Shown here: positions 5,325 through 32,049 of the stretch, piece after piece
Layout: the number at the start of each line of letters is the position of its first letter
Position numbering within the stretch: position 1 is the stretch's first letter
Position numbers and translations under genes: made by a program
NCBI GenBank assembly: GCA_040880805.1
Contig: JBBDHW010000037.1
Span: 1 to 45,359, forward strand
Source: Acidimicrobiia bacterium
GTDB lineage: Bacteria; Actinomycetota; Acidimicrobiia; IMCC26256; DASPTH01
DNA length: 45,359 bases
Reading direction: 5' to 3'
Notes under the pieces: model-generated
Told to the model about the DNA's origin: nothing
Database searches by the model: none
Seen by the model: the letters and a program-made list of their open reading frames with translations, nothing else

Positions 5325-5999
5325 GTGCCGGCTGACCCCGATCTCCTCGGCAGCGTTCGGACCATGCGTCGCAAGCTGGCCGACGACGGTCCGAGCCGAA
5401 CTCGTACCGAGGGCGACTTCGAAGTCGTGTCCGTCCCGCCTCGTGACTGTGACGCGCTCCGCGACCTCCTACTTGCCGAGCGCGCGCGAGTCGTGATCGA
5501 GATCGGCCTCGCGTACGGAAGTTCCGCGCTCGCGATCGCGGAGGCCCTCGTCACTCCGGGCGCCGACGATGCGCGCCACCTGATCATCGACGCGTTCCAA
5601 GGCCACTTCCACGACGCGGGATGGAACGTGATCGTCATGACTGGTCTGACCGACGTCTGCTCGTTGCTGCGCGAACGATCTCAACTCGTGCTCCCCCGGC
5701 TGATGGCCGACGGCGTCGTCGCCGACGCAGCGTTCGTCGATGGCAGCCACGTGTTCCACAACGTGTTCGTCGACCTGTTCTTCCTCGGCGAGCTCGTACG
5801 TCCCGGTGGTCTGATCGTCCTCGACGACTGTTCCTGGCTGTCAGTGGCTACGGCAGCGAGATACTTCGAAAACAACACCGGCTGGCAACGAGAACCGATC
5901 AACAGCGAGACGCGGCTCCGCGCCTTCCGCGTGCCGAACCCCAAGATCGAGGCGAGCTTCGAAGCGTTCAAACCATTCGGCGTCGACTTGACGGACTGA
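5325..5999 (+). CDS. Class I SAM-dependent methyltransferase
   Basis: A 224-residue Rossmann-fold methyltransferase. Motif I is VVIEIGLAYGSSALAIAEAL (about residues 57-76), an acidic position follows in HLIIDAF, AAFVDGSH fits the post-motif region, and LVRPGGLIVLDDC fits motif III of O-methyltransferase-like enzymes. The acceptor is unknown. Start GTG 5325 has only a weak AGGA upstream. The gene fills exactly the space between the transposase remnant (about 24 bases upstream) and the integrase remnant (about 9 bases downstream), so it may have arrived with, or been stranded by, mobile DNA. A small palindrome, CTGATT-CC-AATCAG at 5298-5311, lies directly upstream. Confidence 0.82.
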   Translation: MPADPDLLGSVRTMRRKLADDGPSRTRTEGDFEVVSVPPRDCDALRDLLLAERARVVIEIGLAYGSSALAIAEALVTPGADDARHLIIDAFQGHFHDAGWNVIVMTGLTDVCSLLRERSQLVLPRLMADGVVADAAFVDGSHVFHNVFVDLFFLGELVRPGGLIVLDDCSWLSVATAARYFENNTGWQREPINSETRLRAFRVPNPKIEASFEAFKPFGVDLTD

Positions 6000-28906: not shown

Positions 28907-29530
28907 ATGCCGGAACTTGCCGATGTCGTTGCGCCCGAACACACCGCGATCATCACCCAGGAATGCCAGCGCGGCGTGATCGGTGACCGCAGTGTGCTCC
29001 CTCAGCTCGCGGAGATGGCGCGAGATACGGGAATGATCGACAACGTGGCGCGTCTGGTGGACGCCGGGCGGCGAGCCGGTGTCGAGATCGTCCACCACGT
29101 GGCGACGAAGCGACCCGACATGAAGGGTGCCAACCACAACGCCCGGCTCTTCCGCGCGATGGTGCGGCCCGGTCGTCTCCAACTCACCGGGAGCGAGATG
29201 GTGGAGATCGTGCCGCCCATCAGTGTCTCCGACTCCGACATCATGTCCTCGCGACTGCACGGCCTCGGCCCGCTCGCGGGTACCGATGTCGACTCGATCC
29301 TCCGCAACCTCGGAGTCACCACGCTGATAATCGTCGGCGTGTCTTCCAACGTCGCCATCCCGAACGCGGTCTTCGACGCGGTGAACCTGGCCTATGAAGT
29401 GGTGCTCCCTCGCGACGCGATCGCCGGGTTTCCCGCCGAATACACCGACACCATCGTCGACAACTCCCTCTCGCTCGTCGCGACGATCACGACGACCGAC
29501 GACCTCGTCGCCTGCTGGGTTCCGAGCTGA
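28907..29530 (+). CDS. Isochorismatase-fold protein lacking the catalytic cysteine
   Basis: A 207-residue member of the isochorismatase-like cysteine-hydrolase fold, with TAIITQECQRGVIGD at the position of the usual Asp strand, a Lys in VATKRPDMKGANHN, and GVSSNVAIPNAVFDAVNLAY where active hydrolases carry T-N-V-C. The nucleophile is Ala here and the first acidic residue is also changed, so a standard hydrolase reaction is unlikely. I believe a subfamily with NVAI exists, so it may be a conserved variant rather than a dead copy. GAGGAGG precedes ATG 28907, eight bases after the flavoprotein stop; they form an operon. Confidence 0.85.
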   Translation: MPELADVVAPEHTAIITQECQRGVIGDRSVLPQLAEMARDTGMIDNVARLVDAGRRAGVEIVHHVATKRPDMKGANHNARLFRAMVRPGRLQLTGSEMVEIVPPISVSDSDIMSSRLHGLGPLAGTDVDSILRNLGVTTLIIVGVSSNVAIPNAVFDAVNLAYEVVLPRDAIAGFPAEYTDTIVDNSLSLVATITTTDDLVACWVPS

Positions 29531-29768
29531 CGTCGATCCACGCCCAGGCCACGCCGATCGCGCTGAGAGTGATCAGCACGAACTGGACTACCACGAGCGT
29601 CGTGATCTCCCAGTCGGTGAAGTAGAGATGGAGCGGCAGCGTGAGCACGAAGAACGCGAGCCACTTCAAGCGACCCGAGAGCTGGTGTTTCCGCCACTCT
29701 TTCCACCCGCCCCAGCGCGTGAAGCGCTCGGCCGCGCGCTCGAATGGATCGTCGACTTGGTCGGACAT
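29487..29768 (-). CDS. Small two-helix membrane protein
   Basis: A ~93-residue protein with a charged N-terminal cytoplasmic segment (DPFERAAERFTRWGGWKEWRKH) and two membrane helices: LKWLAFFVLTLPLHLYF and TTLVVVQFVLITLSAIGVAW, then a basic tail (PSRRRGRR). It belongs to the 2TM-domain type of proteins often found beside PadR regulators. The ATG 29768 overlaps the PadR stop by one base (TGATG) with GGGAGG upstream. Its end overlaps the convergent isochorismatase-like gene by 44 bases. Confidence 0.78.
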   Translation of the reverse strand: MSDQVDDPFERAAERFTRWGGWKEWRKHQLSGRLKWLAFFVLTLPLHLYFTDWEITTLVVVQFVLITLSAIGVAWAWIDVSSEPSRRRGRRSS

Positions 29769-30229
29769 CACGCGGCACCTCCCCCCGTGTCTGCGATGTT
29801 CTCGATGTCGGAAGCCGTTCGCTCCAATATCTCGCTGACCTTCTTCGGATCGATCTGTCCTGTGGTCGCGCGTAGCCGTACCACGAAGCGGTCGAGTGCG
29901 TGTTCGAGCAACGCATCGCGCCGGACCCGCACTCCTGTGCGCAGCTCGAGACCGGCGAGTTGCTCACCGCGGGCTCGAAGGGCGTCACGCCCGAGTTCGG
30001 TGAGCTGGACGACCTGGCCGTTGCGCGGGCCGTGTGGGGTACCCGTGATCAGCCGCTCGTGCTGGAGCGCGCGGATGGCGGGGTAGACACTTCCCGTCGA
30101 CGGCTCGTACGCTTCGCCGAAGAGGAGGTCGAGCTCGCCGAGGAGCCGGTAGCCCGTCATCGGCTCTCGTTCGAGCAGGGCGAGGACCACCAGGGGCAGC
30201 TCGCCGTGCCGGAAGAACCACTTGGCCAT
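29768..30229 (-). CDS. PadR-family transcriptional regulator
   Basis: A 153-residue PadR protein: winged helix at residues ~8-85 with LPLVVLALLEREPMTGYRLL, YEPSTGSVYPAIRALQHERL and VVQLTELGRDALRARG, followed by a C-terminal dimerisation helix (VSEILERTASDIENIAD). PadR proteins usually repress a neighbouring transporter or enzyme and themselves. ATG 30229 fits the family start, after GGCGGAA. Four evenly spaced heptamers lie upstream between it and the divergent VOC gene. The small membrane protein is co-translated with it. Confidence 0.93.
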   Translation of the reverse strand: MAKWFFRHGELPLVVLALLEREPMTGYRLLGELDLLFGEAYEPSTGSVYPAIRALQHERLITGTPHGPRNGQVVQLTELGRDALRARGEQLAGLELRTGVRVRRDALLEHALDRFVVRLRATTGQIDPKKVSEILERTASDIENIADTGGGAA

Positions 30230-30262
30230 ATTTTCCGCCGCTGTTCCCGCCGTCCCGCACCG

Positions 30263-30303
30263 TACGAAGTTCATGCGAAGAGTACTGCGAAGATCCTGCG
30301 AAG
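30263..30303. repeat. Four phased heptamer repeats, possible regulator site
   Basis: TACGAAG (30263) and three exact TGCGAAG copies (30274, 30286, 30297) are spaced 11, 12 and 11 bases apart, placing them on one face of the helix. They lie in the divergent region between the PadR gene and the VOC/cyclopropane-synthase genes. An operator for PadR is the natural guess, unproven. Confidence 0.6.
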
Positions 30304-30319
30304 TCAAGCCCGGGGGAAG

Positions 30320-30784
30320 ATGTCGGCCGTGAGCGACGACACCGATGCCGTGTTGAACCAGCTCAACCTGGTGGTCAGCGACATGGACGCAGCGGTCGCG
30401 TTCTACCGGCAACTGGGGCTCGAGGTTCCGGACGGGGGCGCTGACGACGGCATCCGCCATGTCGAGATCGAGATCCCCGGTGGCATCCACCTCGACCTCG
30501 ACAACGAGACGCTCGCTCGCGTCTACAACGCGGCGTGGCGACGACCAGAGGGCGGGAGCCGCGCGCTCCTCGGTTTCGGCGTGTCGTCGCGCGCGGCCGT
30601 CGACGACAAGTACGCCGAGCTCACCGGCGCGGGCCACCGCGGCGTGCAGCCTCCCTATGACGCGTTCTGGGGTGCTCGCTACGCGATCGTGGCCGACCCG
30701 GACGGGAATGAAGTCGGGCTGATGAGCCCGCATGACGACGACATGCGGTCGTTTCCGCCGTCGAACTCACCGGAGGCATCATGA
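30320..30784 (+). CDS. VOC-family (glyoxalase/dioxygenase-like) protein
   Basis: A ~154-residue VOC protein: LNQLNLVVSDMDAAVAFYRQLG (N-terminal module), HVEIEIPGGIHLDLDN (with the metal-site His/Glu-type positions), then ALLGFGVSSRAAVDDKYAEL and the C-terminal module YAIVADPDGNEVGLMSP. Members are metal-dependent lyases, dioxygenases or antibiotic-binding proteins; the specific role is unknown. ATG 30320 is directly after GGGGGAAG, so GTG 30329 may be the better-spaced start. It overlaps the cyclopropane-synthase gene by four bases (ATGA). Confidence 0.85.
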   Translation: MSAVSDDTDAVLNQLNLVVSDMDAAVAFYRQLGLEVPDGGADDGIRHVEIEIPGGIHLDLDNETLARVYNAAWRRPEGGSRALLGFGVSSRAAVDDKYAELTGAGHRGVQPPYDAFWGARYAIVADPDGNEVGLMSPHDDDMRSFPPSNSPEAS

Positions 30785-32049
30785 CTGTGGCGGATCTCCT
30801 TTCGAGCGTGCTCGGATCGAACGTCCCGGTTGCGTTCCGCGCCTACGACGGGAGCAGCTTCGGGCCCGCTGACGCGCGGACGAGCGTGGTGGTTCGTTCG
30901 CCGGACGCGTTGCGCCGGATCGTCACCGCGCCCGACGAGCTCGGCTTCGGTCGCGCGTACGTGGCCGGCGACATCGCGATCGACGGTGACATCTTCGACG
31001 TCATCGCGATGTTGAAAAACTTCCAGAACGTAAGGGTGGGGCCGCAGCAGATCGTGTCGGCGGTGAAGATCCTGGGGGTTCGCAACCTCAAGCCGCTCCC
31101 TCCGCCGCCGGAGGAAGCGCGCCTGCGCGGCCGTCGCCACTCGAAGGAGCGCGACGCGGCAGCGATTTCTTACCACTACGACGTCTCGAACGACTTCTAC
31201 CGGATCGTGCTCGGGCCGTCGATGACGTACTCGTGTGCGGTGTGGACCGACGCGACGGCCACGTTGGAAGACGCGCAGGCGAACAAGCACGAGCTCGTGG
31301 CGAACAAGCTCGACCTGCAGCCCGGCATGCGGCTGCTCGACATCGGATGCGGGTGGGGCGGGATGGTGCTACACGCCGCGCAGCACCACGGCGTGCGCGC
31401 CGTCGGCGTCACGCTCTCGCGGCGGCAAGCCGAGGCCGCGCAGAAGCGGGTGAGCGACCTGGGCCTCGCCGACCTCGTCGAAGTCCGCTACGGCGACTAC
31501 CGCGACATCAGGGACGGGCCCTACGACGCGATCAGCTCGATCGGGATGTTCGAGCACGTCGGTCTCTCGCAACTCGCGGAGTACTTCGAGCGCTGCCACC
31601 GTCTGCTCGCGCCGGGCGGCCGTTTGCTCAACCACGGGATCAGCCGCCCGTGGCACATGCCGAAGCAACATCACGGTCGGTTCGCGCGTCGCACCTTGGC
31701 CAGAGACTTCACCACGCGGTACGTGTTCCCCGACGGCGAGCTCCACGAAGTCGGCGTCGTCGTCTCGGCGATCCAGGCCGCCGGCTTCGAGGTGCGACAC
31801 CTCGAGAGCCTGCGAGAGCACTACGCCCTCACGTTGCGATGCTGGGTGCGCAACCTCCAGGCCGAGTGGGACACCGCGGTCAGCGAAGCCGGTGCCGGGC
31901 GTGCGCGGGTGTGGCTGCTCTACATGTCGGCCGCCGCCGTCGGGTTCGAGGCGGACGAGAACGAGGTCCACCAGATCCTCGCCACGAAGACCGACCACGG
32001 GCAGAGCGGCATGCCCTTGCAACGCGACTTCAACGCCGGTCTCCGCTGA
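30781..32049 (+). CDS. Cyclopropane-fatty-acyl-phospholipid synthase family methyltransferase
   Basis: A 422-residue SAM-dependent enzyme of the CFA synthase family. N-terminal domain with ELGFGRAYVAGDIAIDGD, then AISYHYDVSNDFYRIVLGP and MTYSCAVW (typical of CFA/mycolic acid cyclopropane synthases), SAM motif MRLLDIGCGWGGMVLHAA near residue 185, DAISSIGMFEHVG, and FPDGELHEVG near the C-terminus. It should modify unsaturated membrane lipids, adding a methylene or methyl group, at the inner face of the membrane. Start ATG overlaps the VOC stop, so both are likely under the same control near PadR. Confidence 0.93.
   Translation: MTVADLLSSVLGSNVPVAFRAYDGSSFGPADARTSVVVRSPDALRRIVTAPDELGFGRAYVAGDIAIDGDIFDVIAMLKNFQNVRVGPQQIVSAVKILGVRNLKPLPPPPEEARLRGRRHSKERDAAAISYHYDVSNDFYRIVLGPSMTYSCAVWTDATATLEDAQANKHELVANKLDLQPGMRLLDIGCGWGGMVLHAAQHHGVRAVGVTLSRRQAEAAQKRVSDLGLADLVEVRYGDYRDIRDGPYDAISSIGMFEHVGLSQLAEYFERCHRLLAPGGRLLNHGISRPWHMPKQHHGRFARRTLARDFTTRYVFPDGELHEVGVVVSAIQAAGFEVRHLESLREHYALTLRCWVRNLQAEWDTAVSEAGAGRARVWLLYMSAAAVGFEADENEVHQILATKTDHGQSGMPLQRDFNAGLR

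Follow-up and report, generated by a model that had tools for sequence, protein, structure and literature searches.

What is the function of four short, phased repeats lying between two divergent genes, and to which gene do they belong? The question arises in an Acidimicrobiia contig, where a stretch of 45,359 nucleotides (the whole of which we call the window) carries, at 30263-30303, four T(A/G)CGAAG copies with start-to-start distances of 11, 12 and 11 bp. A gene for a PadR-family regulator lies on one side, and a gene pair encoding a VOC/glyoxalase-family protein and a CFA/CMAS-type methyltransferase on the other. The first-pass annotation had suggested that the repeats may mark cooperative PadR binding that controls a membrane-lipid modifying enzyme. 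We propose that the array is probably the autoregulatory operator of the padR operon, with tandem half-sites that would be bound by PadR, as two dimers, blocking RNA polymerase. This reading draws on comparison of sequences across PadR relatives. The features that it involves are as follows, with elements counted from the padR -35.

29487..29768, minus strand: small ORF with an ATG overlapping the stop of padR; two segments judged hydrophobic by eye, no Pfam match; counterpart of the 2TM ORFs in relatives
29768..30229, minus strand: padR, PadR-family winged-helix regulator of 153 aa (PF03551, E 2.3e-12)
30263..30269, plus strand: element 4, TACGAAG (minus strand CTTCGTA)
30274..30280, plus strand: element 3, TGCGAAG (minus strand CTTCGCA)
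30279..30284, minus strand: candidate padR -10, TACTCT, 17 bp after TTGACT and matching TATAAT at 3 of 6 positions
30286..30292, plus strand: element 2, TGCGAAG (minus strand CTTCGCA)
30297..30303, plus strand: element 1, TGCGAAG (minus strand CTTCGCA)
30302..30307, minus strand: candidate padR -35, TTGACT, read from the sequence and overlapping element 1 by two bases
30320..30784, plus strand: VOC/glyoxalase-family gene, divergent neighbour of padR (PF00903)
30781..32049, plus strand: CFA/CMAS-type methyltransferase gene, downstream of and overlapping the VOC gene (PF02353)

The array sits in a 90-bp gap (30230-30319) that separates the start codons of padR (30229, minus strand) and of the VOC gene (ATG at 30320, with a GTG at 30330 as an alternative), and lies 17 bp from the VOC ATG. 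The regulator itself (P0001) scores 47.2 bits against PF03551, above the cut-off of 27, and so has a PadR winged-helix domain; in the PDB, 19 distinct sequences match profile A1, and many of them are named as PadR family. On the padR strand, the copies start at the 3′ edge of TTGACT and span a plausible -35/-10 region. We infer the padR promoter positions from their place and from the relatives, because a strict sigma-70 scan does not report TTGACT/TACTCT or any other promoter.

The four near-identical heptamers and their 11-12-11 spacing, as originally described, hold up well against chance. By itself the exact heptamer shows no enrichment (4 copies in the window vs 6.29 expected), but its arrangement is singular. 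When any heptamer is allowed, in four copies spaced by 10-12 bp with at most one mismatch in total, 30263-30303 is the sole instance in the window, and such a four-copy array appears in none of 200 order-3 Markov shuffles. Across the 3,485,945 bases of its own genome, TRCGAAG-N4/5-TGCGAAG-N4/5-TGCGAAG matches the array site only, in two overlapping matches. A three-copy GCGAAG pattern has a match in 23 of 395 class genomes. The matches listed, window array aside, are all 30 bases long with 12-12 spacing and look like codon repeats, whereas the window array has 29 bases and mixed spacing. The suggestion that the repeats line one face of the DNA is roughly right, with the qualification that, measured against exact turns of 10.5 bp, the offsets of 0, 11, 23 and 34 drift by about 2.5 bp, or some 86 degrees.

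A check proposed with the first-pass annotation was to look for the same repeats upstream of orthologous PadR genes. PadR was searched for in 58 genomes of the order, 395 of the class and 396 of the phylum, in draws that overlap. The four nearest relatives found match over nearly the whole protein, at 38-50% identity to the window PadR: L128 (50%), L004 (45%), L005 (41-44%) and L129 (38%). All are from other families than that of the window, and two are from other classes. Together with the window PadR they form a clan with support of 0.908 in a tree of 61 rows, comprising these five members, 53 control PadRs, L130, L161 and E. coli NfeR. The clan is small, with five members, all but one from distant families. 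No further array-bearing locus came from G428's order and class (3 genomes each) or from those of G528 (8 and 24 genomes); L161 and L163, which came from these searches, fall outside the clan, and no array lies upstream of the near relatives L130 and L161, both outside it. A scan of genome contigs found one distant PadR, plasmids yielded distant PadRs only (the best one NfeR-like), and the viral contigs searched contained none. As a protein marker of the clan, we considered the alanine that follows YP in the recognition helix; all five members have it, as do 11 of 47 control motif matches, so that it is not diagnostic.

The repeats are present upstream of all four other clan members found. Indeed, each of the five padR genes is preceded by four phased TCG elements at steps of 10-12 bp, placed just after a TTGnnn hexamer. 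Measured at the CG step, the offsets are 0-11-23-34 in the window, where the array follows TTGACT, and identical in L129. They are 0-11-22-33 in L128, 0-11-21-32 in L005 (after TTGCGT) and 0-10-20-30 in L004 (also after TTGCGT). The hexamers preceding the arrays of L129, L128, L005 and L004 are TTGACA, TTGACG, TTGCGT and TTGCGT, in that order. In L004, the fourth element can be placed in two ways that differ by one step, the best array starting one 10-bp step before the alternative one. Four of the five arrays have outer spacings of 11; the middle spacing is 10, 11 or 12.

With a TTCGYA motif derived from the window alone, none of 300 shuffles reaches the score of L128 or of L129, while 6 of 300 do so for L005 and 8 of 300 for L004. 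By a simple window-derived score, L004 and L005 (17) are not above the best (18) of 51 control PadR upstream regions, a set without L012 and L029. With leave-one-out profiles, 0 of 500 shuffles reach the score for each of the five members, and none of the 53 upstream regions of control PadR genes scores at or above any of them. Over these 53 controls, L128, L129 and L005 have a wide margin, L004 has a moderate one (23.2 vs 18.9) and the window a narrow one (18.5 vs 18.2, the latter from L039). Further, when a profile built from the four relatives alone is run over both strands of the window, the window array comes out top (18.5). The runner-up (16.9) is at position 5893 on the minus strand, inside a 224-aa ORF.

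Conservation of the array goes with the PadR clade, not with the divergent gene. On the divergent side, the neighbour is acetyl-CoA-synthetase-like (ACAS_N) in L128, TetR-like (TetR_N) in L129, a TacA-type antitoxin (TacA1) in L005 and a protein without Pfam match in L004. A small ORF lies downstream of padR in all five loci. Three of these ORFs (L004, L005 and L128) match Pfam 2TM (PF13239); those of the window and L129 have hydrophobic segments and no 2TM match. The presence of such an ORF directly after padR in all five loci makes an operon of padR and a membrane protein possible. Because the divergent neighbour differs from locus to locus while the small downstream ORF is shared, the array belongs to the padR promoter.

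These patterns also bear on other readings of the array. One is that a response regulator of the OmpR/PhoB type, or another global regulator, and not PadR, binds it as a tandem box. Boxes of the OmpR/PhoB type, such as PHO boxes, consist of 7-bp units with 4-5-bp gaps, and the 7-bp direct repeats seen here at 11-12-bp steps look alike. We consider such a binder unlikely, as the array stays with padR in loci whose divergent genes differ. Further, the window's own genome has 29 two-copy boxes (TGCGAAG-N4-TGCGAAG, allowing up to two mismatches), compared with 38 matches to the reversed control pattern. The box does not recur beyond this control, and there is consequently no sign of a genome-wide regulon for it.

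Alternatively, the array could be the operator of the divergent VOC-CFA genes, which PadR would specifically repress. Its place between both start codons, close to the VOC ATG, is what such an operator would have, but its company elsewhere makes this improbable. In the relatives the array occurs without VOC or CFA, no PadR-VOC-CFA arrangement was found among their loci examined, and in all five cases the array is at the padR -35. Seen from the other genes, 19 other VOC loci contain no PadR or CFA match (a twentieth VOC match came without a locus) and 26 other CFA loci contain no PadR or VOC match, each locus having about 1.5 kb of flank, or less at contig ends. Control of a membrane-lipid enzyme, as first suggested, is thus unsupported, the divergent gene being different in each relative. 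A protein bound at the array could nonetheless also affect the VOC promoter.

That the array is a functionless product of chance or of recent tandem duplication is very hard to credit: it does contain a 16-nt repeat, 88% identical at a distance of 23 bp, but besides the shuffle result, its place, phase and sequence are conserved beside PadRs only 38-50% identical, and this conservation already contradicts the idea.

An autoregulatory padR operator, the reading that we prefer, would work as follows. PadR would recognise phased (T)TCGYA elements, each a pseudo-palindromic half-site (TnCGnA). Neighbouring elements would be separated by one helical turn, the distance needed by the pair of recognition helices in a PadR dimer. 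The four elements would hold two side-by-side dimers, on elements 1-2 and 3-4, over the padR -35 and -10. The spacing, with outer steps of 11 in all arrays but that of L004 and a variable middle step, fits two dimers with a flexible join. Bound dimers would block RNA polymerase, and a ligand would release them, derepressing padR and the small membrane ORF. Sharing the 90-bp gap, the VOC-CFA promoter may undergo bystander repression. Of the operator first proposed, the tie to PadR is retained in the array's link with the PadR clade, which is compatible with cooperativity. Its description as direct repeats unlike inverted ones is partly wrong: because the core TnCGnA is pseudo-palindromic, the direct-looking repeats may also be read as overlapping inverted pairs, TTyC-N10..12-GyAA. 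The two middle elements of the relatives can be read this way, with a spacing like that of PadR inverted repeats in PMC3506622 and PMC5050560.

How does such an array compare with other PadR operators? E. coli NfeR (YqjI), a PadR-type repressor of the divergent nfeF (yqjH), is 34% identical to the window PadR over 90% of its length, and likewise has a divergent neighbour gene. Two (A/G)ATATA elements lie 11 bp apart upstream of E. coli nfeR, and two lie 10 bp apart at an NfeR-related locus in Acinetobacter. On an Enterobacter plasmid (L165:1317-1461), three (A/G)ATATA elements at exact 11-bp spacing lie upstream of an NfeR-like PadR gene. The NfeR elements differ from the array in being AT-rich, and in such AT-rich DNA their spacing may be chance.

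Published systems share the general layout. In PMC3506622, PMC4517056 and PMC5050560, PadR inverted half-sites are 8-12 bp apart, and PMC5050560 places the recognition helices about 34 angstroms apart. For LmrR, several dimers are suggested on its own promoter, perhaps binding cooperatively (PMC4534193). The operators of PadR, LmrR and LadR read ATGT-N8..10-ACAT, and the sites of cdPadR1, for which two inverted-repeat sites on its own promoter are reported, read TACT-N11..12-AGTA. The likeness is of a PadR-family regulator with sites in its own promoter and half-sites about one turn apart. The difference is that they describe one or two inverted repeats, whereas the window has four direct-order CTTCGYA elements at 11-12-11 bp. 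The window array as read contains no ATGT or ACAT, and so no classical ATGT-N8..10-ACAT operator. None of the titles listed in searches of open-licence literature concerned a PadR with direct-repeat operators.

A further parallel comes from the phylum itself. A CGATATATCG palindrome, with CG steps 8 bp apart, lies upstream of 35 of 53 control PadR genes, and is likely to be the operator in many of these upstream regions. Eleven of the 53 controls (L016, L017, L018, L019, L022, L023, L027, L028, L030, L031 and L032) have a distinct double-operator layout, in which a pair of CGATATATCG palindromes is set at a distance of exactly 13 bp (10 bp plus 3). L039 scores highest of the controls on the array profile (18-19); its PadR gene is preceded by a CGATATATCG palindrome and perhaps by additional half-sites. 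The GATATATC core is absent from the 300 bp upstream of the window padR, and is kept inside the array by L129 only of the five. The arrays of L004 and L005 contain GATATATA/GATATATT, and the elements of the relatives' arrays tend to alternate TTCGTAA and TTTCGATA.

We speculate, tentatively and with some doubt, that this PadR clade swapped a single palindromic operator for a phased half-site array, in which dimers side by side along one face would give a steep autoregulatory switch for padR and for a small membrane protein that may sense or relay the signal. The operator seems changed from one palindrome to a phased half-site array, and it provides a testable candidate for a PadR clade that is uncharacterised and has small membrane ORFs as partners. 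If true, this would show how a symmetric winged-helix dimer can use direct-looking repeats. Compared directly, the two layouts differ in that the palindrome is single, with CG steps 8 bp apart, whereas the array has four, 10-12 bp apart. The outer halves of the palindrome (ATCGTAA and TTACGAT) nonetheless resemble array elements of the relatives, such as TCGTAA. Since its elements resemble half of the CGATATATCG palindrome of other PadRs of the phylum, the array appears to be a variant of known PadR autoregulation.
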